From the NCBI RefSeq assembly GCF_000378965.1, contig NZ_KB900538.1:7203-39603 (forward strand): DNA of 32,401 nucleotides, read 5' to 3'. Below, piece after piece: positions 6,162 through 26,660 of the stretch; position 1 is the stretch's first letter; every line of letters begins with the position of its first letter. Below the pieces are notes generated by a model, which saw only the letters and a list, made by a program, of their open reading frames with translations, did not search any database and was not told where the DNA came from. Made by a program: the position numbers and the translations under genes. This DNA is from Thioalkalivibrio thiocyanodenitrificans ARhD 1 (GTDB taxonomy: Bacteria > Pseudomonadota > Gammaproteobacteria > Ectothiorhodospirales > Ectothiorhodospiraceae).

Positions 6162-6238
6162 CGGAGTGTAGCTCAGCCTGGTAGAGCACTGCCTTCGGGA
6201 GGCAGGGGTCGAAGGTTCGAATCCTTTCACTCCGACCA
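6162..6238 (+). tRNA. tRNA-Pro (anticodon CGG)
   Basis: A 77-nt cloverleaf. Acceptor CGGAGTG pairs with CACTCCG, followed by encoded ACCA (A73 plus CCA) ending at 6238. The D arm has GCTC/GAGC. The anticodon stem is CTGCC/GGCAG around TTCGGGA, giving anticodon CGG. The T arm has GAAGG TTCGAAT CCTTT. It decodes CCG. Its 3' half is the likely attachment site used by the integrase that begins 158 nt downstream. Confidence 0.97.
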
Positions 6239-6396: not shown

Positions 6397-7413
6397 ATGG
6401 CAACGATCACGAAACGGGGGAAGTACTACCAGGTAAGAATCCGCCGGAAGGGCTTTCCGAGCCTGTCCGCCAGCTTTGACAGCGCCAAGGAGGCCCGCGC
6501 CTGGACGCGCAAACAGGAAGGGGACATGGATAGGGGCATGTTCCAAGACCCGACGGCTCGCAGCATCACGCTGGCCGAGGTCCTTGAGGGCTACCGAAAG
6601 GATGTCGCCCCGATGAAAAAGGGCTGCGAGTCGGAGTTCTCGCGCATCCGGGTACTTCTCAGCGACCGCATCTCGCAATTCTCCCTTGCAAACCTGACTT
6701 CCAAGGAGGTGAGGCGGTTCATCGAGCGTCGCTTGGAGACCGTGTGTGGCAGTACCGTAAACCGTGATCTGGCCCTCTTGAGCCGCGCTCTGCGCTACGC
6801 TCGTGCCGACTGCGGCATCCCCATGCCGGATAACCCCTTGTTTGGTGTGACGCGGCCCCGGAACAACCCTCACCGAGATCGTCGCTTGCGACCCGGCGAG
6901 GAACAACGCCTGATCGCCGCTATCACCGCCGATCAGGAGCGGGACGCCCAGGGGCGTTACGTCACGGGCACACGTAATCCGTGGATCCTGCCCCTGGTCC
7001 TGTTGGCCATCGAAACTGCGATGCGGCGGTCGGAACTCCTTGCCATCCAGTGGCAGCACGTAGACCTTGAGCGACGCGTCATCCGCCTCATCACCAGCAA
7101 GAATGGCCGTGGGAGGGCGATCCCTTTGTCAACCAAAGCTGTTGCGATTCTCCGTGACCTGCCTCGTAGTGAGGACGGGTGCGTTTTTCCGCTCACCGCG
7201 AACGCGATCAAGTGCGCCTGGCGGCGGGTCACCCGGGTTGCCGGCTTGGAAGACCTGCGGTTCCACGACCTTCGTCACGAAGCGACCAGTCGTTACTTCG
7301 AAAAGAGGTTGCAGATCATGGAAGTGGCATCCATCACGGGCCATCGGGATCTGAGCATGCTGATGCGATATACGCACCTGAGCCCAAACGATCTTGCCCA
7401 CAAGCTTGGGTAG
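6397..7413 (+). CDS. Tyrosine-type site-specific integrase
   Basis: 338 residues. Start ATG at 6397 with GAGG 6 nt upstream. The N-terminus MATITKRGKYYQVRIRRKGF is an Arm-binding type domain. A core-binding (SAM-like) region spans about residues 60-165. The catalytic domain shows box I MRRSELLAIQWQHVDLE (Arg), then box II HDLRHEATSRYFEKR (His-x-x-Arg), GHRDLSMLMRYTH (third His and nucleophile Tyr). All catalytic residues are present, so it appears intact. It lies directly downstream of tRNA-Pro, the standard position for an integrase that inserts its element into the tRNA 3' end. The opposite attachment site is not seen in this window. Confidence 0.95.
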   Translation: MATITKRGKYYQVRIRRKGFPSLSASFDSAKEARAWTRKQEGDMDRGMFQDPTARSITLAEVLEGYRKDVAPMKKGCESEFSRIRVLLSDRISQFSLANLTSKEVRRFIERRLETVCGSTVNRDLALLSRALRYARADCGIPMPDNPLFGVTRPRNNPHRDRRLRPGEEQRLIAAITADQERDAQGRYVTGTRNPWILPLVLLAIETAMRRSELLAIQWQHVDLERRVIRLITSKNGRGRAIPLSTKAVAILRDLPRSEDGCVFPLTANAIKCAWRRVTRVAGLEDLRFHDLRHEATSRYFEKRLQIMEVASITGHRDLSMLMRYTHLSPNDLAHKLG

Positions 7414-7524: not shown

Positions 7525-8151
7525 TCACGCGTTGGCCTTCTTGGGTCGCCCGCGCTTTGTTGCAGGGCGGACCTTGGTTGCAGCTGCCGGGGTTGTCGCT
7601 TCGCGGGCCGAGGACAGTGCCTCCACGACCCGGGCGAGATCGCATAGACGCCCTTCCAGTCTGCCGACCACGTCCTCAAACCGGTTTGCAAGTTCTGCCT
7701 TCTCAGCCGCGAGGGTGCTTGCTTTCTGGATGGCATGGTCGCGTTCCTTCCCGAGCGCATCGTTCTCGGCGAGGAGCCGGGCTACCTCGGCATTCAGGTG
7801 GTCGTGAGTCTCGCACATCTCAGTGAGGTCCCTCTGGAGCTCCTCAGACGCTAGCTGGGTGGCTTTCCGGATCTCATCTATACCCGAGCCGGCAATCTGC
7901 TGTGACGTTTCCCAGAGATCGTTCAGACAGCGCCGGAACGCGTTCTCCAACGTCTCTGGCACCTTCTGAGCCATCTCCCTCTCGGATCTATTCTCCGATC
8001 TCCAACTGTTGAGATGTCTCTGGATGGTGCTGAGGGAACCCGTGTCGCCAAGCTCTCGGCGCACTGCGCCGATGGTGATGTCTTCGCCGCGCTCAAATAG
8101 TGACTCGACGGCCGTCTTCACGTCGTCGTACCCAATGCCGTTTCTTGCCAT
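7525..8151 (-). CDS. KfrA-like DNA-binding protein
   Basis: 208 residues. Start ATG 8149-8151 (MARNGIGYDDVKTAVESLFE) with GGGGGA upstream. Residues 5-55 match the KfrA N-terminal helix-turn-helix type: VKTAVESLFERGEDITIGAV, then RRELGDTGSLSTIQRHLNSW. Residues about 60-185 are a long charged coiled coil (LASEELQRDLTEMCETHDHL..., AEKAELANRFEDVVGRLEGR). The C-terminus ends TKRGRPKKANA, which contains an AT-hook-like GRP core. KfrA proteins are plasmid-encoded autorepressors that help plasmid stability. Here the gene is on an integrated island downstream of a Replic_Relax-like gene. A palindrome at 8182-8199 is a candidate operator. Confidence 0.8.
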   Translation of the reverse strand: MARNGIGYDDVKTAVESLFERGEDITIGAVRRELGDTGSLSTIQRHLNSWRSENRSEREMAQKVPETLENAFRRCLNDLWETSQQIAGSGIDEIRKATQLASEELQRDLTEMCETHDHLNAEVARLLAENDALGKERDHAIQKASTLAAEKAELANRFEDVVGRLEGRLCDLARVVEALSSAREATTPAAATKVRPATKRGRPKKANA

Positions 8152-8181
8152 AAATCCCCCACACGCTTGGTTGATGAGAAG

Positions 8182-8199
8182 ACCGACCAGGTGGTCGGT
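8182..8199 (-). promoter_or_regulatory. Palindromic candidate operator of the KfrA-like gene
   Basis: ACCGACCA and TGGTCGGT are perfect 8-bp inverted arms with a 2-nt GG spacer, centred about 40 nt upstream of the kfrA-like start. KfrA-type proteins are known to repress their own promoter through inverted repeats, so autoregulation is the natural inference. No experimental support is available here. Confidence 0.5.
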
Positions 8200-8347
8200 G
8201 CGGTGGGTGTAGGTACCGGGGCCCGCACGCCTGTGAGAGTTTCTGGCTGTGGCAGGATAAACGGTTGCCGGAACCCGATGGACGGCGAATATAGCGGCCT
8301 TATGCACATGGCTGGGATAGGTTCCTTGAGCGCGGAGAATCGCCCCG

Positions 8348-9259
8348 TTAATCGTAGCCAAGTAACAGATCCCGCCACACTGGGTAGTCTTCGACGATCA
8401 GTCCTGGTGTCATGGTAAGGACGGAAACGTATACGTGTGTCCGAATCAAGTGTCGCTGCTGATCTGTGAGTTGAAGGCTGTCAAACTCTTTCATCATGAC
8501 GGTGGCAATGCGATCTGTAAGCCGTGCATCTGTAGTGACGAGCTCGATGCTCATCAGCTTGAGATTGTGGGCGTAGATTGGGTTCAGGGGTCCGTGTACA
8601 AGGAGGTGCATCAGCTTTCGCATGTCGCTGTGGCGGCGTCGGCTGTGCTCTGCTTCGATCCAGGTGAAACCCGTCGTGCGCACCTGAATGCTGTCGGCGA
8701 TCTTGCCGCACCAAAGACCGACCGGACACCTCCTCGTATACAGTTCATGTTCGGAGTAGACGTCAGGCCCGTATACATTTCGAACCGTGATTGAATGCCA
8801 GTTACACAGAGCACGATGTATCCACCTGCCCATGCGCAGGTCTTTTCCGCTGCGTGCATTGATACCATGCTCCCCAAGGCGCGCGGCCCCGGCGCTGCTA
8901 AGGGCGTACCCAGGGACCCCATTGGGGAGCGTAAAGACAAGCACCTGGGAGAGCCGCTTAAGGCGATGCAGAGTCCGCCGCGCCATTTGCGCCTGTTGAG
9001 TTCCGCCCGGCCACACCCATTCACCGAGCTGCCTGGATGTGAGCCAACCGAACTTGTGCAGTGCGTGCAGTATGTTGACTTCGTTCTCACATGCGATCAC
9101 CTGACCAGACTTCATATCAGGTGTGTGCTGTGATGCGTGGGTAGATGTTCCCAGGGGTGCCAGAAGTGATGCGTCAGCGGGTGGCGATGCGAGTGTGTCG
9201 GCGTTGCTGTTTGGCTCCTCGTGGCGAACGAGGTTGGTGCGAAATAGCTTGTCGAGCAT
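8348..9259 (-). CDS. Replication-relaxation-like (Replic_Relax/MobC type) protein
   Basis: 303 residues. The start at 9259 (MLDKLFRTNLVRHEE) is chosen because AGGAGG lies 6 nt upstream. Domains: a low-complexity N-terminus (1-55); a winged-helix region (58-135: NEVNILHALHKFGWLTSRQL, LHRLKRLSQVLVF, GYALSSAGAARLGEHG); then an alpha/beta C-terminal region with a nuclease-like D189...WIEAEHSRR (200-207) pattern. This layout resembles the Replic_Relax family found on plasmids and ICEs, whose members act near origins of replication or transfer. Family assignment is from pattern only. It is upstream of and co-oriented with the KfrA-like gene (196-nt gap). A palindrome-rich block lies just upstream of it. 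Confidence 0.55.
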   Translation of the reverse strand: MLDKLFRTNLVRHEEPNSNADTLASPPADASLLAPLGTSTHASQHTPDMKSGQVIACENEVNILHALHKFGWLTSRQLGEWVWPGGTQQAQMARRTLHRLKRLSQVLVFTLPNGVPGYALSSAGAARLGEHGINARSGKDLRMGRWIHRALCNWHSITVRNVYGPDVYSEHELYTRRCPVGLWCGKIADSIQVRTTGFTWIEAEHSRRRHSDMRKLMHLLVHGPLNPIYAHNLKLMSIELVTTDARLTDRIATVMMKEFDSLQLTDQQRHLIRTHVYVSVLTMTPGLIVEDYPVWRDLLLGYD

Positions 9260-9414
9260 GGAATGCCTCCTGTTGCGGTTAGGAGGTCTAGCGAAAATTG
9301 GAATTGGCTTGCATGATGGCGAGCTCAGCAACGTCCCATGCACCGCACGATCTACCGTATGCGAGGGGTGTATATGAGGGGGAGGTGTCGGGGTCGTCTA
9401 CGGTGAATGAAGGC

Positions 9415-9960
9415 TTATGAGCCGCCTGCGGCGGCACCGACACCGGCCGCTTTCCGCTTGGCTGGACGCCAAGCCCGCGGCCTGCCTGGGCTGAACGCCC
9501 AGTCTGTCGGTCGTCTATAGGCCCGCCCCTCCGGTCTGCGCTATCGCCTGCGGCGACAGCTTCGCCCTGCGGGAAACCCCTGAACCTCGTGTCGCCATCA
9601 GCGCACACTGCATGCCTGCGGCACTTGTGTTTGCTGGGCGAACACATCCGCCCCCAGACGCGCTGACGCGCGTCCGGGGCCCCCTAGCGGATGTTCACGG
9701 ATTCAGGGGTTTCCCGCAGGGCTCCGGCTGGACGCCGCAGCCGCGGGGCGGGCGGGGCTACGCCCCCCACAAGCCTGCCGCACTGGGGTGCGGCCGCGGG
9801 CTGGACGCCCGCTCAGGCTTGCGGCTCCCCCCGCCTTCCGGCGGTTCGGCTAGGGGCCGAACGCGCCTCCAGGGGGCTTGCGCTGAACGCGCATCGCCCC
9901 CGCTCGATGTCCTATCGAGCGGCTCCCCCGGCGCGAATCATTACCGATATGCCGCCTGAG
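9415..9960. other. GC-rich palindrome-dense non-coding block (possible origin/oriT or structured RNA)
   Basis: No frame here looks like protein. The block contains many short hairpins in series, such as CTTGG-CTGGACG-CCAAG, TGGG-CTGAACG-CCCA, GGGCTGGACGCCC, GACGCGC-TGAC-GCGCGTC, GGGGCTACGCCCC, CGCCTTCCGGCG and TTCGGCTAGGGGCCGAA. The loops CTGGACG/CTGAACG recur. A 21-bp perfect inverted repeat (9564-9584 with 9702-9722) encloses a 117-nt segment, itself bounded by near-inverted GAACACATCCGC / GCGGATGTTCAC. It lies upstream of the Replic_Relax-like/KfrA-like pair. Confidence 0.6.
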
Positions 9961-10330
9961 GCTTTGGCCGGAGTAGCAGCTATGGTTGTGGGCTGGTACG
10001 CCCTGCTGCGTAGGGTAGTCATGCGTTGATTGCGCCTCCAAATGAAGCAGATTAGGGTCCGCTCAATGCCATCCCCCTGTGTGTCCCCGGTCGCTTCACG
10101 CGCCATCGGGTGGTCGTCTTTTCTTCTGAGGACACTTGCCCCGGTCCTCATGCTGACGGAGGCAACAGCCGGCGGACGATAGGCTTGAACGGTGCGGGAT
10201 GGGTAGCATAAACCGCGGGGAGACGAGGCCGATGTGTCGTGTTTGCCTCGTCCGTATCAAGCCATTAAAGTTGGGTCGAAAAGACGGCCAAGGAGTGTGG
10301 TCATCTATGGTGCTGCCCATCACATCCTTA
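9961..10330. other. Non-coding stretch, nothing recognised
   Basis: No convincing gene, RNA or mobile element was seen. The short open frames here lack ribosome sites and protein-like composition. Confidence 0.5.
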
Positions 10331-10454: not shown

Positions 10455-10554
10455 CGGGTGGGGTTCTACCCCGTCGCTCCAGCCGCCTTCAAGCTGCGGT
10501 GCGGCTTTCCTCGGCTGCGCTTGGCGCTAGCACGAACTGGGAGCTAGTGCCTTG

Positions 10555-11532
10555 ATGACAGAGAATCCTTGGGATCGCGTTGAACAGCACCCGGATGACG
10601 AAAGCGCGGGCACCCCCTGGTTCTTCGCGGAGACGTACCTTGAGTTTCATCGGGGCCTTGAAGCACTGCTGCAAGAACTTGAGAAACACCGACAGGCTGT
10701 GGAGAAACTCGGGTTAACTGCGTCCCCCTTCGAAGAAGAGGTAGACCATCTGCGCAGTATGGTGGACTGGGGCACGGAAAGGCTTGATGCGACGACTGAC
10801 TCGCGTCATGGAACTATTGCCGTAACGGGCGTGAGTTATGGGTCTCTGAGGTACCTCAAGGCCGGAGTTCTGTATCGTGCTTTTGACGTAGCGAAGCAGA
10901 GGTCAGTCCTCCTAGCTAAAAACAGGGTCGTTCCGAGGAGTGTCCTTCGAAGCTTTGACACGCGGATCGAACAGCTTCGAGGTATGGCCGAGATGGGCAA
11001 ACTCAGTGGACTGAAGCCAGCCGATGTCCTGTTTGAACTGACTGAAGCGCAGGTACCCGCAGGCGATCTGCCGCCACCTCCAAGACTCTTGCAAGCACTA
11101 CCGCCATCAACGGTTGTGTCGGAGGTCGTAGTAGTCGACGAAGTGCTGAGGAAGCGTTGTCTTCCTTTGCTTCGCGCAATCGACGAAGTAGGAGGAAATG
11201 ACCAGTATGACTCCGTTATTCGAGAGATGAGCGTGGTCTTGGAGGACAGGGTGCGTGAGATGTCAAGGCACGCGGGCAACGCCTCCGGAGCCGAGCTTCT
11301 GGGAATCACAATGGCTCGTGATCCAGTGCTGATTCGATTCAGCCCGGAAAAACACGTCCAAGAAGCGGCGCACTTGTTCTTCCGAGGGTATTCAGGCCTA
11401 GTGCGAAACGATGTCATGCATCGCGTCGTCGAGAGCTACACCAGAGAGCGAATGGTGCAACTCCTCGGGACGGTGGACTACCTGCTGTACCTCTTGTCCC
11501 AGGCCGAGGTGTCACCCTTAGGAGCGCCATAA
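10555..11532 (+). CDS. TIGR02391/Ymh-like protein, defence-associated type
   Basis: 325 residues; ATG 10555 with GGGAG about 10 nt upstream. The C-terminal third (about 240-316) resembles the TIGR02391 (hypothetical Ymh) family: SGAELLGITMARDPVLIRFS, then VQEAAHLFFRGYSGLVRNDVMHR, with the RN..H signature, then helices MVQLLGTVDYLLYLLSQAE. The first ~80 residues are helical (YLEFHRGLEALLQELEKHRQAVEKLG), and the middle (about 85-200) is unassigned. The family is of unknown biochemical function and is often carried in mobile islands near restriction or abortive-infection genes. The RNxxH signature is reminiscent of HEPN-type RNases, but that link is only an idea. It appears intact and monocistronic. 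Confidence 0.6.
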   Translation: MTENPWDRVEQHPDDESAGTPWFFAETYLEFHRGLEALLQELEKHRQAVEKLGLTASPFEEEVDHLRSMVDWGTERLDATTDSRHGTIAVTGVSYGSLRYLKAGVLYRAFDVAKQRSVLLAKNRVVPRSVLRSFDTRIEQLRGMAEMGKLSGLKPADVLFELTEAQVPAGDLPPPPRLLQALPPSTVVSEVVVVDEVLRKRCLPLLRAIDEVGGNDQYDSVIREMSVVLEDRVREMSRHAGNASGAELLGITMARDPVLIRFSPEKHVQEAAHLFFRGYSGLVRNDVMHRVVESYTRERMVQLLGTVDYLLYLLSQAEVSPLGAP

Positions 11533-11919: not shown

Positions 11920-12052
11920 CCATTTTCGTGGATCAGATGCGAAAGCCGCCCAACAATGCGCTCCAATCGGCATCCCTTCTGCCTCTTCGCGGCTCCAGGA
12001 CCACGGCGGAGCGCGGACATTGTACATATATGATACTGAGATGATGAAATGA
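11848..12052 (+). CDS. Possible small leader ORF coupled to the DUF2971 gene
   Basis: 67 residues. ATG 11848 has GGAGGA 5-6 nt upstream, located inside a hairpin (GCTATCCT/AGGATAGC, 11825-11843). Its stop overlaps the DUF2971 start as ATGA (12049-12052), the layout of translational coupling. The sequence is not clearly protein-like in its second half and has no recognised domain. It could be a leader peptide or chance. Confidence 0.3.
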
Positions 12053-12465
12053 GATTTATAGTTAAAGTCGGCAGCGATAGCCCCGCCGAGGAACCTTCGA
12101 TTCCTGAAGAGGATCTACCTTTATTACTATATCATTACTGTACCATGGAGTCGTTTTTAGCAATTATTCAAAGCAAACGAATTAGGCTATCGAACTCTTT
12201 TATACTAAACGACTCTAGAGAAAATACATGGATAAACAATTATATTAACCAAGCAATATCAGACTTCAAAACTAACGAAACTGAAAAGTTCGTAGACGGA
12301 TTTATTGAATTGTATAATGGCTATAAATTCACGCCATACGTGTCATGCTTTTCCAAAGATGGTGATTCTTTGAGCCAGTGGAGAGCTTATTCGAATGATG
12401 CAACTGGAGTTGCGATTGGCTTTAAGCCTAAGTCGACGTCCCCCCATGTTGAGTAGCGCTGGCAT

Positions 12466-13314
12466 TTAGAGTCCGGTTGCCACGGTAGCCGATGCCACGG
12501 CCAGTTTTCTTGCATAAGCAGCGGGCGTGAGCCCGCCCAGTCCTTTCTTCGGGCGCTCCTCGTTGTACTCGCGCCGCCAGCCCTCGATGATCTGCTGCGC
12601 ATGAGCCAGGCTTACAAACCAGTGTTCGTTCAAACATTCATCCCGCAAGCGCCCATTGAACGATTCGATGTACGCGTTCTGGTTCGGCTTTCCAGGCTCA
12701 ATCAGCCGCAACGCCACCCCTTGGGTATGCGCCCACGTCAGCATGGCTCGGCCGCAAAACTCCTTCCCATTGTCCGTACGCATCACCTGCGGCAGATCGC
12801 GCGTCAGAGCCACCCGATCGAGAATCCGCGTCAGCAACTGGCCCCCGATAGCCCGCTCCGCAACCACTGCCACCGACTCATGGGTGGCGTCATCCACAAT
12901 CGTCAGACACTTGATCACCCGACCATCGGCACTGCGGTCGAACACGAAGTCCATGGACCAGACCTGGTTCGCAGCCCTGGGACGCACCAGCGGCTGGCGC
13001 TCTCCCGCCGCCACCTTCTTGCGCTTGCGCCGGCGAAGCTGGAGCCGTGCCTCGCCATAGAGACGCTCGACACGCTTGTGGTTGACCACCAAACCCTCCT
13101 GGCGCAGCTTCAGATAGATCATCCCCGCCCCGTAACGCCGGTGGCGATGCGCAAGCGACACGATCCTCTGGCGCAGCTCCACATTGCGGTCCGGGGCCGC
13201 TCGGTAGCGCATACTGCTCGCGCTCATGGCCACGCAGCGAAGCGCATGGCGCTCCGTGAGGCCCCGAGCACACATCCAGCGCACCACCTCCCGCCGCGAC
13301 GGTGCGCCTACCAC
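12466..13314 (-). CDS. IS407-type transposase OrfB (DDE domain), copy 1
   Basis: 282 residues counted from the GTG at 13314. It contains an HTH_21-like N-terminus ([20 protein letters not shown]) and an rve-type DDE integrase core: [20 protein letters not shown] (first D), [15 protein letters not shown] (second D), [20 protein letters not shown] (catalytic E), then [19 protein letters not shown]. It is normally expressed as an OrfAB fusion by -1 frameshifting at the A6G run at the end of orfA. All catalytic residues are present. Confidence 0.95.
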
Positions 13315-13571
13315 TTTTTTCGCAGCACCTCACGGGTCACCTCCTGCTCCAGGAGTGCCTCCGCCAACAGCTTCTTGAGCCGCGCATTCTCCTGCTCCAG
13401 CGCCTTCAGCCGCCTGGCCTCAGAGACATCCAGCCCCCCGAACTTGCTGCGCCAGAGGTAGAAACTCGCCTCCGAGAACCCGTGCCGCCGGCACAGCTCC
13501 TTGACCGCCAGACCCGCCTCCGCCTCACGCAGAAACCCAATGATCTGCTCCTCCGAAAACCGCTTCTTCAT
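13308..13571 (-). CDS. IS407-type transposase OrfA, copy 1
   Basis: 87 residues from ATG 13571 ([20 protein letters not shown]), chosen over an upstream ATG because AGGAGG lies 6 nt before it. It has an HTH_Tnp_1-type helix-turn-helix ([20 protein letters not shown]) and a leucine-zipper-like tail ([20 protein letters not shown]). It ends LRKKW, where A AAA AAG is a canonical slippery heptamer leading into orfB. Confidence 0.95.
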
Positions 13572-14249
13572 GCCCAACCTCCTTCCGATCAGGGGATTGG
13601 ACTCCAAATCTGCGTGCTACTCAAATACGGGAGGACGTCGAAGTCATTTAATATAAAGTTTCGGCCTCCATTTCCCAATATAAATTTGGACCAAACTCTT
13701 GGATTCGTCCCGGTAATATATGGCCATGAATCTCAAGAAGAATTAACTAAAAATGTGTTCCCTGAAACATATAAGAGATATAAAGCTGGTAAAATGGATA
13801 AAGAAAATGCTCTTATAAGTTGTGTATATAATTTTAAGAAATTCGCTCCAATTTTCAAGAATCCAGCTTTTCAAGAAGAGTCTGAGTGGAGAATTATTCA
13901 TACTCCTTTGGTGTTAGGCGACGCTGATGGAAACCTGGAACTACAGTCAGCGTGCTCGGAGATCGGTTACAGAGTAACTAATAATAAGATAATTACACAT
14001 TTCGAACTTCCTCTTGCCTCTTCGCAACAATACCCAATAGGAGAAATCGTGCTTGGCCCCAAGAATATTTGTGAAGAGTCTTTAATCGAGTTGCTATTGA
14101 ATGATAATGGATTTAAGAATATAGCCATCTTAAGATCAAGGGCGTCCTACAGATAAATATACAACCAGTCGTTTCACGCGGACTCATGGAAGCTCGGGGG
14201 CGGCCTGTACGTTAGCTGCGCATGAAGATCACCGGAAAACAGAGACACT

Positions 14250-14341: not shown

Positions 14342-14387
14342 GTGGAACGGTGAAGACCCTGTAGGTCTTCACTATACGACGTTCCAC
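14342..14387 (-). terminator. Nested hairpin at the end of the type IIL gene
   Basis: The inner stem GTGAAGACC / GGTCTTCAC (9 bp, 5-nt loop) lies directly past the stop codon. The outer GTGGAACG / CGTTCCAC arms include the last codons of the gene. There is no strong T run, so it may terminate weakly. Confidence 0.45.
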
Positions 14388-17300
14388 AGCCCTTCCTGTT
14401 GCTTCGCTTGGCCGAGGACTGCCAGCGCCTCTAGAACCTGTTCCACCGCTTTAGTGGGCTTGCGTTTGAAGTGATTGGCGAGGGCGTCGAGAGTTTGCGG
14501 GCCATTGCCGAGCAGGGCGCGGATGGTTTGTACCTGTTCGGGCATGGTTTTGGGCCAGGTTTGTTTGCCGCTGCTGGGGGCGGTGGGTTGGCTGACTTGC
14601 TCTTCAATGTCGAGCCTGGCGCTTTGCGGGCTGGGGGTGGCCTGGGTCTTGGGGGCCTGGTATTCGTGGCGGAGCCAGCGGATGTGGCCTTGAGCTTCTT
14701 CGGCGGCGCGCTGGGCGTTTAGCTCGACGAGGCGGATGAGGAGGGTTTCCTCGGCTTCAGCCTGCTCGGCGGGTTTGTTGGGCAGCGGGGTGGTGGCGCC
14801 GGGTTTGCCGACCAATTGGTCGGCAAGATCGCTCCAGCTGTAGGCGTCGAACACAGCTTGGTCGAGGTCGTCGTGCAGTTCGCGCAGCAGGGAGACGACG
14901 CCCTGTTGGTGGATGGTCTTTTCTTTGGCGCTCAGGGGTTCCTCTGCACGGATCTTTTCCAGTACGTTGTAGATTCCGGTGAGGGTGAGATCAGGGTGGT
15001 CGACCTGTACCTGTTTGCGGTGGGTGTCGATCTTTTCGGCCAGGTCGCCGATGGCGTTGGCCCGGGATTCGGTGAGTTCCGGGAAGGGGAAGGTTTCGAA
15101 GCAGCGTGTTTTGTTGTAGCGGGCATCATTACCCATTCCCAGACGTCCACCAGTTGCCAGAGCCCATGCCACATGGATTCGAGTGGAGAGAACACCGTGT
15201 ACAGCGGCATCATCACTAGCGATATTAACCAGCATGTTGTCTGGAAGTATGTCGGCATCGAGGAACTGGAAGACTCGATGTCTGGTGGTTTCCACCGTGG
15301 CAATATACTTGTTAAGGCCACGTGACATCTGACGCCACTCCCTGCGAGCTTCACCAAATATCCACCAGTTGTCACGATATGTTGAACGTTTGTTCTGGTC
15401 TCGCTCAGGCTTTACCCGCTCAAGTACCCACTGGTATACGGCAGGAAACTGGGCTTTTACTCCATCGAGAGTGTGACCGAACAGGTCAATGACCATCACA
15501 CCACGTGGGCTCTGAGTGAGATCTCGCCCATTGCGATATGCTCGGATTACGCTTGATAGCTCTGCTTGTTTTCCCAGTCCGAGCTGCGTGGCCTCTTCCG
15601 GGCTAACGATGAAGCCGGAACCATGCAGTTTTACGCCGGGGGAGCTGATCTCGCTGTTCGACAATAAGGCGCCAGCCCCCGCCACATTCGCCCCCACCGA
15701 CAAATCCGCAAACAATTTGCCACGGCGCTTGCCCAGCTGCACCGAGCGGGCATCTTCGTCGTCGCTGCTTTCGCTGGTGACGTGGCGCAGTACCCCGGGC
15801 TGATCACCCGCTGAGCCAACGGTCATGGCAATACGCACGGCGGCGCCGTCGTTAGCCTCTACCCAGGGGTGGTCAGGGATAGCGAAGAGCAGTGACAGGG
15901 GCTTCTTGCTGTCGTTCAGATGGGGTTCGAGTATGCGGCGGTTGAAGGTTTGGCGCAGGCTGTTGGTAGTGATGAAGCCAAAGCGTTGGGCCTGGCCGTG
16001 GCGGACCTTGTGAGCGGCGATGTTCCACCAGTACATGACGAAGTCGGCGGAGTCAGGGACTTCGCCGGAATAGACATTGCGCACGGCATCGACGTAGCCG
16101 TCGCCGAGGGCGCGGCGCATGGTGGCGGCGCCGATGAATGGCGGATTCCCAACGATGTATTCCGCCTCAGGCCATTCGGCCTTGCTAGGATTGTGGTAGC
16201 GGTAGACGGGAATGCGCTGGGCCTCATCCGGGATCAATTCGCTGGTGATGGGGCTGGGTTTGTAGCTGATGCCGTCCCAGAGGGTGACAGGGTTGCCGTT
16301 GTCATCGAGCATCTCTTCGCGGCCGTCGTACTCTATGAGGGCGTCGCGGTTCTCGATGTTCTTGAAGTCGCGCAGGATGGGGTCGGGCAGTTCCAGTCCG
16401 CCATGGATGCGGAAGTGCCATTGCAGGTAGCCGATCCAGAGGACGATCTCGGCGATGGCGGCGGCGCGGGGGTTGAGTTCGAGGCCGAGAAATTGATGTG
16501 GATCGACGGTGAGGCCGCCGGCTTCCATGGCCATCTGTCCGCCGCTCAGATCGCTGATGAGATTCTGCACCTCGCCTTCGAGGCGTTTCATGTGTTCCAG
16601 GGCAACGTAGAGGAAGTTGCCGCTGCCGCAGGCGGGGTCGAGCACGCGGGTATGGCAGAGTTGGTGGTGGAAATCGCGCAGCTCTTTGAGGGCCTTGTCG
16701 GGCTTGTTTTGTTGCAGGTGCGCGGCGGCGGCGACCTGGACGTTGTTCCACTGTTCGCGCAGAGGGTCGATGAGGGTGGGCATGACCAGCCGTTCGACGT
16801 AAGCGCGCGGGGTGTAGTGGGCGCCGAGTTTGTGGCGTTCGCGCGGGTCGAGGGCGCGTTCAAGCAGGGTACCGAAGATGGCGGGCTCGACCTGGCTCCA
16901 GTCGTGCTTGGCGGCGTTGATGAGGAGCTGGATCTGTTCGGCATTGAGTGGGATGGGATTGATGTTTAGGAACAGGCCGCCGTTGAAGCATTGGATCTGA
17001 CTGTTGAGCAGGCCGCTGTAGCCGCCGGTGTTCATGGTTTCCCAGAGGGATTTGATCGCGTCGGGGAAGTGTTGCGGGGTCTCCTTGAGCCGTTCGAGCA
17101 TGGCGGTGAACCGGCCCTTGGCGATGAGATCCACGTCTTCGCTGAACATGGTAAACAGGCAGCGCTTGAGAAAGTGGGCAACACGCTCGACCTGGTAGCC
17201 GTTCTGTTCCAGGGAGCGGGCTAGATCGGCCAGAGTGCGGCTGAGGTCGCGGGTGACGCGGGCGGCGTGTTTGCTGGGGTCGAGTCGATCAGGGTCGAGC

Positions 17301-17857
17301 CAGAGCAGGCGCAGGCGTTGCTGGATGGCGGGCTTGCGCAGATCGTGTAGGTGGATGCGGTGGTGCCCCGGATCGGGATAGGGTACGTAACTGCCCCCGG
17401 AGCGGGAGAACTCGGCGTAGAGTTCGAGAGAGCGGCCCACATCGGTGACGACGATAAACGGCGGGCGGCCTTCCTTGTTTGGCAGGGCGCGGACGTACCG
17501 ATCCGCCTGGCTGTGGGCGGCCAGCATGGCTTTGTCCCAGCCCTTGCTGGCCATGTCCTTGTTGGTCTTCTTGGCCTCCAGTACGAAGCAGCCGCGCTTG
17601 TAGAGATCGATAAAGCCGGAGCTGCGACTGCCATCGGCGTGGCGCAGGTCTACCTTGTGTTCAAAGACGTAAGTGCCTTTGTCGGTGCTGGCACTGGAGG
17701 GATCTGGCTGGGGCAGGTCGAGCAGGGCGCACAGCTCGGTGAGAAAGAGCTGAAATGTGGCCCTCTCCCCTCCGGTATTAGCCTCCCAGCGGGCAATGAA
17801 GTCGTTGAGGGTGTCCTCAGTGATGGCCGGATGTTCGGGGGTCCCTGCGAGGGCCAT
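14372..17857 (-). CDS. MmeI-like type IIL/IIG restriction-methyltransferase
   Basis: 1161 residues. The start at 17857 (MALAGTPEHPAITEDTLNDF) is chosen because AGGA lies 9 nt upstream; an upstream in-frame start at 17980 would add 41 unlike residues. One polypeptide cleaves and methylates DNA. Seen: an N-terminal PD-ExK nuclease as D84-x9-E94-A-K96 (FIDLYKRGCFVLEAKK), the MmeI spacing; a helical spacer (about 190-330); methyltransferase motif X (LGAHYTPRAYVERLV, ~345-358), motif I DPACGSGNF (407-415), motif IV NPPF (571-574, N6-adenine type); a target-recognition region (about 640-950, with NKTRCFETFPFP). A C-terminal tail (about 1060-1161) contains a wHTH-like segment (IRALLGNGPQTLDALANHFK). 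MmeI itself is about 920 residues, so this is a long form. Frame and motifs are intact; recognition site unknown. It stands alone with no separate specificity subunit. Confidence 0.88.
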   Translation of the reverse strand: MALAGTPEHPAITEDTLNDFIARWEANTGGERATFQLFLTELCALLDLPQPDPSSASTDKGTYVFEHKVDLRHADGSRSSGFIDLYKRGCFVLEAKKTNKDMASKGWDKAMLAAHSQADRYVRALPNKEGRPPFIVVTDVGRSLELYAEFSRSGGSYVPYPDPGHHRIHLHDLRKPAIQQRLRLLWLDPDRLDPSKHAARVTRDLSRTLADLARSLEQNGYQVERVAHFLKRCLFTMFSEDVDLIAKGRFTAMLERLKETPQHFPDAIKSLWETMNTGGYSGLLNSQIQCFNGGLFLNINPIPLNAEQIQLLINAAKHDWSQVEPAIFGTLLERALDPRERHKLGAHYTPRAYVERLVMPTLIDPLREQWNNVQVAAAAHLQQNKPDKALKELRDFHHQLCHTRVLDPACGSGNFLYVALEHMKRLEGEVQNLISDLSGGQMAMEAGGLTVDPHQFLGLELNPRAAAIAEIVLWIGYLQWHFRIHGGLELPDPILRDFKNIENRDALIEYDGREEMLDDNGNPVTLWDGISYKPSPITSELIPDEAQRIPVYRYHNPSKAEWPEAEYIVGNPPFIGAATMRRALGDGYVDAVRNVYSGEVPDSADFVMYWWNIAAHKVRHGQAQRFGFITTNSLRQTFNRRILEPHLNDSKKPLSLLFAIPDHPWVEANDGAAVRIAMTVGSAGDQPGVLRHVTSESSDDEDARSVQLGKRRGKLFADLSVGANVAGAGALLSNSEISSPGVKLHGSGFIVSPEEATQLGLGKQAELSSVIRAYRNGRDLTQSPRGVMVIDLFGHTLDGVKAQFPAVYQWVLERVKPERDQNKRSTYRDNWWIFGEARREWRQMSRGLNKYIATVETTRHRVFQFLDADILPDNMLVNIASDDAAVHGVLSTRIHVAWALATGGRLGMGNDARYNKTRCFETFPFPELTESRANAIGDLAEKIDTHRKQVQVDHPDLTLTGIYNVLEKIRAEEPLSAKEKTIHQQGVVSLLRELHDDLDQAVFDAYSWSDLADQLVGKPGATTPLPNKPAEQAEAEETLLIRLVELNAQRAAEEAQGHIRWLRHEYQAPKTQATPSPQSARLDIEEQVSQPTAPSSGKQTWPKTMPEQVQTIRALLGNGPQTLDALANHFKRKPTKAVEQVLEALAVLGQAKQQEGLWNVV

Positions 17858-18273
17858 TCGGGTTTCCTGTCTGTCGTTCTTGGGCGATTGTAGCAGGATT
17901 GTGTGTGACGTTCGCCAGCGGGTCCGGCCAAGGCATCTCATTGATATGGTAGAGATAAGTCTAAGTTTTGCGCCTTGCATTCAACCGTGATGTGCAACAC
18001 CTGGCACATGGGGGTTAATGTCATCCCTCGATCTCCCTTGTAACGAGGTCTAACCACAGTAATTGATTGATATTGAGTTAGATGGGTACTCCTTGGCGTG
18101 CAAAGTGCCGTTAACAAAGGTGTTGGCCTTGAACCACCCCGGGTATCGCGGAGGCTCCATTCTCTCAAGAGTTGGAGCCTCCCCGATACCCGGGGTGGTT
18201 CAGAGAGGTGATCAACAATCCTGGGGCGATAGGGTTCGATGCATCTGTGGGACAATCCGAGTCAGAGCGACGT
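17858..18273. other. Intergenic region upstream of the type IIL gene
   Basis: About 415 nt without a gene. It holds the divergent promoter space of the type IIL gene and a 73-bp IS-derived palindrome (separate entry). Otherwise nothing was recognised. Confidence 0.5.
18130..18202. repeat. 73-bp palindromic miniature derivative of the IS3-group end
   Basis: Two 29-nt arms starting TGAACCACCCCGGGTATCG are inverted around a 15-nt loop, with one mismatch. Read on the minus strand, the first ~50 bases match the orfA-side end of the IS3-group element (26710 inward, and 32281 onward) except for CCACCC versus CCGCCC and one G/C change. The arm then repeats in inverted form. There is no transposase and no visible target duplication. 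It is a MITE-like or hairpin relic of that element. Confidence 0.75.
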
Positions 18274-18336: not shown

Positions 18337-18600
18337 ATGAAGAAGCGGTTTTCGGAGGAGCAGATCATTGGGTTTCTGCGTGAGGCGGAGGCGGGTCTGG
18401 CGGTCAAGGAGCTGTGCCGGCGGCACGGGTTCTCGGAGGCGAGTTTCTACCTCTGGCGCAGCAAGTTCGGGGGGCTGGATGTCTCTGAGGCCAGGCGGCT
18501 GAAGGCGCTGGAGCAGGAGAATGCGCGGCTCAAGAAGCTGTTGGCGGAGGCACTCCTGGAGCAGGAGGTGACCCGTGAGGTGCTGCGAAAAAAGTGGTAG
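18337..18600 (+). CDS. IS407-type transposase OrfA, copy 2
   Basis: 87 residues, identical to copy 1 OrfA. ATG 18337 follows AGGAGG. It carries the helix-turn-helix and zipper-like tail, and ends at the A AAA AAG slippery site (about 18588-18594). Confidence 0.95.
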
Positions 18601-19442
18601 GCGCACCGTCGCGGCGGGAGGTGGTGCGCTGGATGTGTGCTCGGGGCCTCACGGAGCGCCATGCGCTTCGCTGCGTGGCCATGAGCGCGAGCAGTATGCG
18701 CTACCGAGCGGCCCCGGACCGCAATGTGGAGCTGCGCCAGAGGATCGTGTCGCTTGCGCATCGCCACCGGCGTTACGGGGCGGGGATGATCTATCTGAAG
18801 CTGCGCCAGGAGGGTTTGGTGGTCAACCACAAGCGTGTCGAGCGTCTCTATGGCGAGGCACGGCTCCAGCTTCGCCGGCGCAAGCGCAAGAAGGTGGCGG
18901 CGGGAGAGCGCCAGCCGCTGGTGCGTCCCAGGGCTGCGAACCAGGTCTGGTCCATGGACTTCGTGTTCGACCGCAGTGCCGATGGTCGGGTGATCAAGTG
19001 TCTGACGATTGTGGATGACGCCACCCATGAGTCGGTGGCAGTGGTTGCGGAGCGGGCTATCGGGGGCCAGTTGCTGACGCGGATTCTCGATCGGGTGGCT
19101 CTGACGCGCGATCTGCCGCAGGTGATGCGTACGGACAATGGGAAGGAGTTTTGCGGCCGAGCCATGCTGACGTGGGCGCATACCCAAGGGGTGGCGTTGC
19201 GGCTGATTGAGCCTGGAAAGCCGAACCAGAACGCGTACATCGAATCGTTCAATGGGCGCTTGCGGGATGAATGTTTGAACGAACACTGGTTTGTAAGCCT
19301 GGCTCATGCGCAGCAGATCATCGAGGGCTGGCGGCGCGAGTACAACGAGGAGCGCCCGAAGAAAGGACTGGGCGGGCTCACGCCCGCTGCTTATGCAAGA
19401 AAACTGGCCGTGGCATCGGCTACCGTGGCAACCGGACTCTAA
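18594..19442 (+). CDS. IS407-type transposase OrfB, copy 2
   Basis: 282 residues counted from GTG 18594, identical in sequence to copy 1 OrfB, with the complete DDE triad (D of WSMDFVFD, D of RTDNGKEF, E of IESFNGRL). It overlaps orfA by 7 nt in the -1 frame. Intact and probably active. Confidence 0.95.
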
Positions 19443-22790: not shown

Positions 22791-24682
<1,892 letters not shown>

Positions 24683-25431: not shown

Positions 25432-26283
25432 TCAAGCCGCCATTACGGCCTGACTGGCGAGTTGCCGATAGTAGTTTGCCTCAGCTTCCACCGGCGGAAT
25501 ATACCCCAAGGGCTCCATCAACCTCTGATGATTGAACCAGGACACCCATTCCAGCGTCGCCAGCTCCACCGACTCCCTGGACCTCCAGGGGCCGCGGCGA
25601 TGGATCAGTTCCGCCTTGTACAGGCCGTTGATGGTCTCGGCCAAGGCATTGTCGTAGCTGTCGCCACGGCTGCCGACCGACGGCTCGATACCGGCTTCGG
25701 AAAGTCGCTCCGTGTAGCGAATGCTGACGTATTGCGACCCGCGGTCGGAGTGATGGATCAGGGCATCGTTATGCTCGGGCTGCCGAGCGTAGAGCGCCTG
25801 CTCCAGGGCATCGAGCACGAAGTCCGTGGTCATGGTGCAGCTGACGCGCCATCCCACGATGCGCCGTGCGAAGACGTCGACAACGAAGGCCACGTACAGC
25901 CATCCCTGCCAGGTCGAAACGTAGGTGAAGTCCGACACCCAGAGCTGGTTGGGGCGCTCGGCCTGGAACTGCCGATTAACCCGATCCAACGGACATGGCG
26001 CCGATCGGTCCGCCACGGTGGTGCGAACCGTCTTGCCACGGCGTGCCCCCTGCAAGCCCAGGCGGCGCATGAGCCGCTCCACGCTACAGCGCGCCACGGA
26101 AACACCTTCGCGGTTGAGTTGCTTCCAGACCTTGTCGGCGCCGTAGACCTGGAGGTTGGCCTCCCAGACACGCTCAATGTGTGGAACCAGCCGCTCATCG
26201 CGCTTGGCCCGGGCACTGCGCAGATCCGGATTGCGCCGCCGGGCCGCATGGCGCCGGTAGGCCGATGGGGCAACCTGCAACAC
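25432..26283 (-). CDS. IS3-group transposase OrfB
   Basis: 283 residues from the TTG used here; the frame is open upstream to the orfA overlap (reading [20 protein letters not shown]), as expected for an OrfAB fusion made by -1 frameshifting. rve-type DDE core: NQLWVSDFTYVSTWQGWLYV (first Asp), ALIHHSDRGSQYVSIRYTER (second Asp), DNALAETINGLYKAELIHRR (catalytic Glu), then VSWFNHQRLMEPLGYIPPVE. All catalytic residues present. Confidence 0.95.
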   Translation of the reverse strand: MLQVAPSAYRRHAARRRNPDLRSARAKRDERLVPHIERVWEANLQVYGADKVWKQLNREGVSVARCSVERLMRRLGLQGARRGKTVRTTVADRSAPCPLDRVNRQFQAERPNQLWVSDFTYVSTWQGWLYVAFVVDVFARRIVGWRVSCTMTTDFVLDALEQALYARQPEHNDALIHHSDRGSQYVSIRYTERLSEAGIEPSVGSRGDSYDNALAETINGLYKAELIHRRGPWRSRESVELATLEWVSWFNHQRLMEPLGYIPPVEAEANYYRQLASQAVMAA

Positions 26284-26336
26284 TTTGCAGATCGGCTCGA
26301 CCCCATAGGCGTCCCGGTGCTGATCGATGTAGGCGT

Positions 26337-26660
26337 TTACGACTTCAGTTTGCGGTCGAGCTCCGCCTGCGCGAAAAAAGCGCTGGCGGTACGCAGGATC
26401 TCATTGGCGCGCCGTAACTCCTTGTTCTCGCGCTCCAGGTCCTTGATGCGCTGCGTCTCGGCCGTGGTCATGCCTGGCCGCGCACCCGCATCAATCTCCG
26501 CTCGCCTGACCCACTCCAGCAGCGTCTGTGGCACGCAGCCGATCTTTGGGGCTATCGACTCCACAACCGCCCACAGCGACGGGTACTCCCCACGGTGCTC
26601 CTGGACCATCCGCACCGCCCGCTCACGGACCTCAGGTGAAAACTTGTTTGACTTGTTCAT
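26337..26660 (-). CDS. IS3-group transposase OrfA
   Basis: 107 residues beginning [20 protein letters not shown], an HTH_Tnp_1 type protein ([20 protein letters not shown]) with a coiled-coil tail ([20 protein letters not shown]). The start lies beside the hairpin of the IS end. Confidence 0.95.

Follow-up and report, generated by a model that had tools for sequence, protein, structure and literature searches.

The DNA analysed here, referred to as the window, comprises 32,401 nucleotides of contig NZ_KB900538.1 from Thioalkalivibrio thiocyanodenitrificans ARhD 1. On its left side a tyrosine integrase gene (6397..7413, plus strand) lies beside a tRNA-Pro gene (6162-6238) and converges with two minus-strand genes. 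These are a Replic_Relax-like gene (8348..9259; ATG at 9257-9259, with the frame open to 9343), whose product is predicted to combine a winged helix with a PD-(D/E)XK-like domain, and, next after it, the gene of a KfrA_N protein (7525..8361). Directly upstream of the 8348-9259 gene, when both are read on the minus strand, stands a hairpin-rich block (9415..9960). Further right a Hypoth_Ymh protein is encoded at 10552-11532, and DUF2971 matches occur in two separate frames (12049-12456 and 13302-14156) that are possibly copies or a broken gene. The MmeI-like type IIG restriction-modification gene at 14372-17980, identified by Pfam MmeI domains, is part of the cargo. Insertion sequences abound towards the right side of the window, with an rve transposase (18594-19442), an IS21-type pair (22791-24655) and an IS3-type rve transposase (25432-26382) that carries an ALIL pseudoknot (Rfam RF01497, 108.6 bits). 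A search that allowed at most 3 mismatches over 20 found no att repeat of tRNA-Pro inside the window. Since window and contig share their right end, the island's far end may be missing.

The description of the block as a dense hairpin array, given in a first-pass annotation, held up against shuffled sequences. Ten perfect stems of at least 6 pairs were counted in 9415-9960, compared with a mean of 2.2 and a maximum of 8 in 200 dinucleotide shuffles, and the folding energy (z -12.3 on the minus strand, -9.3 on the plus strand) was reached by 0 of 100 shuffles on either strand. Repeat analysis of the window recovered the perfect 21-bp inverted repeat of that annotation (9564-9584/9702-9722) together with the palindrome reported inside it, a hairpin at 9657-9674. 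The pattern GGCTGRACGCC is present in four copies in the window, all of them inside the block (expected 0.05), and CTGAACG at 9879-9893 adds a fifth loop of this kind. The repeated CTGGACG/CTGAACG loops are therefore present as annotated, but they are better read on the minus strand, where they form GUCCA and GUUCA pentaloops beside a CCCA tetraloop. The hairpin block is thus confirmed, and chance is a poor account of it.

The block is crossed or overlapped by three frames (112-119 aa), all of which lack a Pfam match. When the ORFs of 18 neighbourhoods were compared by BLASTP-type similarity (E<=1e-6), no recurrent protein was found over the block region beyond three close pairs (G780/G657, G413a/G413b and G480/G745), the last of which share 43% identity in an antisense frame. 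A protein-coding frame was consequently rejected as the identity of the block, in agreement with the earlier reading that it holds no protein-like frame, and homologous islands showed no conserved frame beyond those three pairs. A promoter scan of 9100-10300 found no sigma-70-like promoter, and a terminator scan returned a single terminator-like site, on the plus strand, which is no more than shuffled sequences give. Neither the block nor 20 related loci matched an Rfam 15 family at gathering score; a laxer search gave a single match, at 15.2 bits where the gathering score is 60. The 4227 families searched presumably include GOLLD, ROOL and OLE. ARAGORN called a tRNA-Gly at 9745-9836 on the minus strand, in the core of the element, where Rfam finds no tRNA; this call was rejected as probably false, and it could mislead annotation.

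On the grounds of folding, shuffling and conservation, we delimit the whole structured element, a putative RNA, to 9415..9960 on the minus strand, read leftward; the alignment with a profile made from the other loci spans about 9427-9900. All parts listed here lie on the minus strand. The element opens with the first GGGGGAGCC motif (9921-9929) and its hairpin CCGCTCGAT/ATCGAGCGG (9900-9922), which together occupy 9900..9932; a similar module was seen by eye in some other loci. Element A follows (9872..9901), a hairpin GGGGGC-GAU-GCGC-GUUCA-GCGC-AA-GCCCCC whose counterpart GGGGC-NA-GGC-GUUCA-GCC-GNA-GCCC was recognised by eye in several loci. The core, element B (9754..9832), consists of GGGGGGAGCC, a junction arm with two hairpins and a GGGGCGUAGCCCC hairpin. 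Its arm is formed by a 5' strand (9814..9822) that pairs with a 3' strand (9769..9777), the closing pair being G-U, and carries the hairpins GCGGGC-GUCCA-GCCCGC (9796..9812) and GCCGCAC-CCCA-GUGCGGC (9777..9794). In relatives the core reads, by eye, GGGGGGAGCC, junction arm with hairpins, then GGGGGGC-GNA-GCCCC.

Helix E (9745..9753 paired with 9521..9529) encloses the central stem; it is formed by GCCCGCCCC/GGGGCGGGC in the window and has a GGCGUCCC/GGGACGCC counterpart in G307. Within it lie a CGGCUGCGGCGUCCAGCCG segment forming a hairpin (9725..9743) and the central 21-bp stem, whose 5' strand (9702..9722) carries the recurrent motif GCGGGnAAC and pairs with the 3' strand at 9564..9584 around the hairpin GACGCGC-GUCA-GCGCGUC (9657..9674). 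Further hairpins are UCGCC-GCA-GGCGA (9544..9556), CUGGGC-GUUCA-GCCCAG (9486..9502), GCUUGGC-GUCCA-GCCAAGC (9456..9474) and GCCGCC-GCA-GGCGGC (9421..9435). The recurrent order as judged by eye, 5' to 3' in the sense direction, is GGGGGAGCC module, GUUCA hairpin, core, enclosing helix, central stem and GUYCA hairpins. In the gap between element and gene, CGCTAGAC (9286..9293, minus strand) belongs to a motif CGCTANAC that precedes the gene in 11/18 loci; 22 copies were counted overall in 336,452 sense-strand bases, 11 of them at this place. Its distance to the protein match downstream is 24-43 bases in 7 loci, and 100-219 bases in 4 loci whose proteins are longer. CGCTANAC is a possible -10 box or cut site.

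Matches to the neighbouring protein were counted in genome sets that overlap. They were found in 4/96 relatives, 3/47 genomes of the family, 4/369 of the class and 4/398 of the phylum (the own genome being included in each of these four sets), as well as in 2/5 genomes from the order of G307 and 22/399 from the family of G268. The relatives identified by name are Thioalkalivibrio sp. ALJ3, T. halophilus HL17 and a Thiotrichales MAG. We then considered the upstream regions of 32 related genes of Gammaproteobacteria, that of the window among them, over 1000 bases each or, in L012, over 891. A central stem that we judged to be of the window's kind, often with GCGGGnAAC, was present in 22 of these 32 regions, which bears out the expectation that the same block would be found beside other Replic_Relax-like genes; the hairpins are kept in related loci. 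For L052 the stem counted is a helix of score 13.5, the top helix being another repeat. Within 1 kb, hairpins with GTYCA loops numbered 41 in the gene sense and 0 in antisense, and those with CCCA loops 35 and 0; these counts are descriptive, since the loop classes were picked after the first loci had been viewed and near-duplicate loci are included. Such close pairs or groups are L063/L064, L069/L070, L072/L073, L085/L086 and L075-L077, and L087 and L088 are second places of one genome each. One antisense GTYCA hairpin appeared, in L072, on extension to 1650 bases.

The ten stemless loci were L075-L077, L078, L079, L082, L083, L084, L087 and L088. The near-identical L075-L077 have neither the stem nor the loop hairpins. 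L078 was left uncounted because its top helix is unlike the central stem, and in L079, L082, L083, L084, L087 and L088 no stem of the central kind was found within 1.5 kb; L087 has a different helix (score 13). By eye, L078, L079, L082, L083 and L084 share a different conserved noncoding block, in gene sense and roughly 850-1000 bases ahead of the match, composed of CCCGGCCCGATGRCACCAAACG, a related hairpin of GGCGTCCAGCC type, CGCGACTGGGCCGGC and GGCGGTGCGAAACCGCCGCCGTCC, not every part being visible in every locus. The Replic_Relax genes that this block accompanies form a sister group, and the block is possibly another subtype of the RNA.

Leave-one-out sequence profiles recovered the element on the sense strand and at the expected place in 12/15 loci at E<0.02, among them the window (E=0.0017) and G802 (E=0.016 over 77 bases). 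For G011 (0.11) and G094 (0.18) the best hit was at the right place but non-significant, and G480 had none there. G657, G413b and G745 had been dropped from this set, and G015 and L107 served for training only. On its profile score (E=0.0017), the copy in the window counts as a diverged one. A further relative from a phylum-wide draw, G1161, has the core, the arm and GUCCA hairpins in DNA of 57% G+C, and folds with z -7.1 in sense and -5.2 in antisense.

A DNA pattern of the core, searched over viral contigs, matched one contig, in which a related gene lies directly downstream (E=7.8e-44, from an alignment built from sequences other than that contig). A second pattern matched the same contig and one more; the latter lacks the gene, but its record stops within the element, so that this absence is uninformative. 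The viral-classed record IMGVR_UViG_641736124_000004 (L107, 14300-14588) ends inside a copy of the element, and the viral call may here have cut an integrative element in two. In the 369 genomes the first core pattern gave three matches, and as each is a locus that had served to write the pattern, they show its specificity only. Searches for DNA similarity of the block, or of the blocks of two relatives, returned no plasmid or phage; among the 96 relatives the block matched itself, and short stretches (25-37 bases) of it matched in 7 further genomes. With the first protein alignment no relatives were found in viral contigs, and a later alignment found the core-pattern contig again. Phages yielded no protein relatives, and plasmids yielded four Variovorax records and one from Thauera; in 1.9 kb upstream of the gene in one Variovorax record, no block was seen by eye.

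Folding was then compared between strands in 17 loci, G657 and G413b having been dropped for their closeness to G780 and G413a. Measured against dinucleotide shuffles, folding was better on the sense than on the antisense strand in 15/17 loci (Wilcoxon p 0.0004), with a mean z of -7.1 for sense, -5.0 for antisense and -1.6 for 15 control stretches. Folding with DNA parameters gave the same strand bias in 16/17 loci; since the asymmetry is equal with DNA parameters, it shows the strand and cannot separate RNA from single-stranded DNA. Over all candidate stems, G-U and A-C mismatches stood at 38 to 34, with longer flanks at 13 to 15, and in another set at 39 to 27, a balance that favours neither RNA nor DNA. 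The comparison of related loci supports a conserved, strand-specific folded element, which would be either a structured RNA or structured single-stranded DNA.

Compensatory change was found in one helix, the junction arm of the core. In a five-locus alignment of its 7 pairs, 85.7% of the cells were paired, compared with 53.8% after shuffling, and the covariation score was 0.900 compared with 0.293; both values were reached by 0 of 500 shuffles, and the score dropped to at most 0.257 when columns were slid by 1-3. Five pairs had changed on both sides, a number equalled by 40/500 shuffles. In 15 loci (G657, G413b, G745, G480 and G011 dropped), where a script chose arm partners on Watson-Crick pairs only, 11 loci kept at least 5/8 Watson-Crick pairs with 11 different arms; 7/8 pairs were kept in 7/15 loci and in 2/3120 random partners. 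In G268 the script chose an arm of the first module. Below the 5/8 limit were G754, G607, G538 and G802, the arm of G607 sitting in a motif variant that the script missed. The multiple alignment meant for a covariance model was structurally poor.

The mismatches in the 11 arms were 9 G-U, 0 A-C and 6 other. The closing pair is G-U in 7/11 loci, so that seven of the nine G-U mismatches fall at this one position; the loci also share ancestry, and the 9:0 count is not made of independent events. A G-U closing pair would be A-C on the opposite strand, which favours the gene-sense strand and leans to RNA. The first-pass annotation had offered an oriT, a single-strand origin, a structured RNA or an array of protein-binding hairpins. 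What stands of this list is a conserved, strand-specific fold; between RNA and oriT, the G-U pairs of one helix lean to RNA.

The setting of the element was examined in the same 18 neighbourhoods. By BLASTP clustering, a gene of tyrosine-recombinase type is present in 12/18, and in 6 of them it is convergent and less than 2 kb behind the nuclease gene; this assignment is supported by Pfam for the window and G447, and by an HxxR-type motif in 6/13 ORFs. Pfam covered part of the neighbours (20 window ORFs and 30 neighbourhood ORFs) and revealed restriction- or defence-type genes in 8/18 neighbourhoods. This cargo varies: MmeI-type enzymes (window, G307), type III (G268), type ISP (G754) and type I (G538) systems, GmrSD with a methylase and ArdC (G780), a helicase with MZB (G607), and a cytosine methylase with an SNF2 helicase and RadC (G802). 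Upstream of the element, DUF6573 genes occur in G268, G607 and G538 (Pfam) and in G412 (clustering), and KfrA_N homologues at two places in G413. In G480 and G745, Phage_GPA matches adjoin the element (L097 4942-6228, 24.7 bits with a cut-off of 31.4, and L098 53-1855, 110.9 bits), which suggests that some of these elements may use rolling-circle replication. The structured element, most likely a large folded RNA of a new family, is met repeatedly in proteobacterial mobile islands, many of which bear anti-phage genes, and stands there directly before a gene whose product is of DNA-nicking type.

The earlier assignment of this gene to Replic_Relax was upheld in part. The link of the block to such genes is supported, but the window protein scores 17.7 bits against Pfam Replic_Relax PF13814, below the cut-off of 25.3. 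In a scan of 10 relatives' proteins (G754, G780 and G714 excluded), three passed (27.9, 27.2 and 26.2 bits), one was below (15.6) and six had no match. AlphaFold models of the window protein, built on 5-sequence alignments (pLDDT 71; residues numbered from base 9253), predict an N-terminal winged helix (residues 49-132) matched by MarR proteins (best Z 11.2, rmsd 2.7, 77 aligned); the winged helix expected of a MOBC relaxase is present in the model. Many restriction-type nucleases, including BspD6I and FokI (Z 7.5, rmsd 3.6, 121 aligned), are among the best matches of the C-terminal part. Its top match is AF1548, of unassigned function (Z 8.0), and unrelated mannitol-1-phosphate dehydrogenases also match at Z 6.7 and lower. 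Foldseek gave no match of the C-terminal model at E<=0.001, and among the structural matches listed for either half of the protein there was no solved relaxase structure. D187, W198, E200 and E202 are invariant in the 5-sequence alignment.

The available part of PMC12857230 describes TraX of pAD1, a MOBC relaxase, as a winged helix joined to a restriction-endonuclease-like catalytic domain. Replic_Relax is given as Rel_PF13814/MobC in the accessible text of PMC5357655, is called a relaxase in that of PMC8492726, and is printed beside MOBT in a table row within the accessible portion of PMC11104534. On the basis of its model, we treat the window protein as resembling MOBC relaxases, short of proven membership.

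Strand-specific conserved structure, covariation of one helix and recurrent linkage to the gene were thus obtained by computation. As an explanation of them, we consider it reasonably probable that the element is a noncoding RNA of about 500 nt which belongs, with the integrase and the MOBC-relaxase-like nuclease, to the mobility core of a family of integrative elements whose members often carry restriction or defence genes. This RNA would be read leftward, from about 9960 to 9415, and would fold into G-rich modules, the covarying junction arm, a helix-enclosed long central stem and hairpins with GUYCA and CCCA loops. We infer that it is produced while the element is active and that its repeated loops are bound by protein, most simply by the adjoining winged-helix nuclease; the resulting RNA-protein complex might aid or time the processing of DNA for transfer or replication; SGI1 likewise depends on sgm-sRNA for its mobilisation. 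Against this reading stand the lack of a sigma-70-like promoter in 9100-10300, the bare upstream regions of L075-L077 and the non-significant profile recovery of G480, G011 and G094.

The most serious competitor, though on balance an unlikely one, is an oriT or leading region in which structured single-stranded DNA, or double-stranded sites, would be bound and nicked by the MOBC-like relaxase and the island mobilised by helper conjugation. Several observations are compatible with it: the gene architecture (winged helix and PD-(D/E)XK) resembles that of MOBC relaxases, and Replic_Relax is listed as Rel_PF13814/MobC in what is accessible of PMC5357655; the atypical relaxase genes named in the available part of PMC9299015 have their oriTs on the upstream side; the strand bias persists with DNA parameters; and the short CGCTANAC motif, between element and gene in 11/18 loci, is a candidate nic site only. 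However, an ornate, multi-domain structure of about 500 nt exceeds what a nick and a binding site need, the G-U pairs of the arm (closing pair in 7/11 loci; 9 G-U and 0 A-C) run against it, and short direct repeats like those bound by TraX are absent among the repeat families of the window alone. Given the elaborate fold with its several domains, the arm G-U pairs and the SGI1 precedent, it is our judgement that RNA is likelier than oriT DNA. A more daring form of the RNA reading, to which we attach little probability, makes the RNA a stable partner of the winged-helix nuclease in a ribonucleoprotein relaxase or initiator, its loops being needed to recognise or process the element's DNA.

It is also rather improbable that the element forms a cis-regulatory leader, serving as 5' untranslated region in the mRNA of the nuclease and acting as an attenuator or switch, with no separate RNA. 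Its location ahead of the gene and on the same strand would suit this role, as would the loop hairpins (41 to 0) and the distance of about 90-340 bases between the end of the element and the profile match in leave-one-out hits. Against this, CGCTANAC, possibly the -10 box of the gene, comes after the element, though it is absent in 7/18 loci, and usual leaders are smaller and less complex. Finally, a neutral gathering of G+C-rich palindromic REP-like repeats in a noncoding gap is rejected as having almost no probability: the block is indeed G+C-rich (0.72) and GGCTGRACGCC occurs 35 times genome-wide compared with 14 for a reversed control pattern, but the block as a whole matches a single locus of its own genome, and its ordered architecture, covariation and leave-one-out recovery contradict chance as the whole explanation.

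For large folded bacterial RNAs of unassigned function, doubt about their gene partners makes study difficult. Here, a recurrent relaxase-like nuclease partner in small integrative elements makes the role of the proposed RNA directly testable, by mobilisation and binding. If the RNA takes part in DNA transfer, then, with sgm-sRNA of SGI1, RNAs would be components of island mobilisation, which could help to explain the movement of defence islands; if the ribonucleoprotein reading were true, defence islands would carry an RNP-based mobilisation machine.

Among known systems, GOLLD, ROOL and OLE are, like the RNA proposed here, large many-hairpin bacterial noncoding RNAs in the available description of PMC12286853, and GOLLD and ROOL are found in many phage genomes according to the accessible part of PMC7567579. 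The element differs from them in having no Rfam match, other hosts and other gene neighbours. The PLE satellite and phage ICP1, as far as described in the same portion of PMC7567579, produce abundant transcripts predicted to be noncoding, and PLE is an integrative satellite; the likeness is by description alone and the element type is different. TraX of pAD1 and MobC of CloDF13 are likewise encoded by mobile elements, TraX combining a winged helix with a nuclease-like domain, but TraX binds at five direct repeats situated some 70-120 bp away from nic, and the available oriT description in PMC12857230 contains no folded element of 500 nt; for the window protein, with its weak Pfam score, nicking is putative. 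The closest precedent found is sgm-sRNA of SGI1, likened to the element by description and not by sequence. In the available part of PMC9299015 it is encoded between an atypical relaxase gene and oriT, is needed for mobilisation, and is considered by its authors for a role in binding or recruiting proteins. There, the relaxase MpsA is tyrosine-recombinase-like, in contrast to the PD-(D/E)XK-like protein here, and the sgm-sRNA core (about 1,295 to 1,572 of the mob region) is shorter than the element and is described, in that part of the source, with no conserved ornate fold. In the titles and abstract openings listed, mostly open-access, on Replic_Relax, large noncoding RNAs, defence islands with noncoding RNA and RNA with relaxase or oriT, no such element is described. 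Judged on these, large mobile-element RNAs are already known as a kind, and it is the fold and the gene partner of the proposed RNA that are apparently new.
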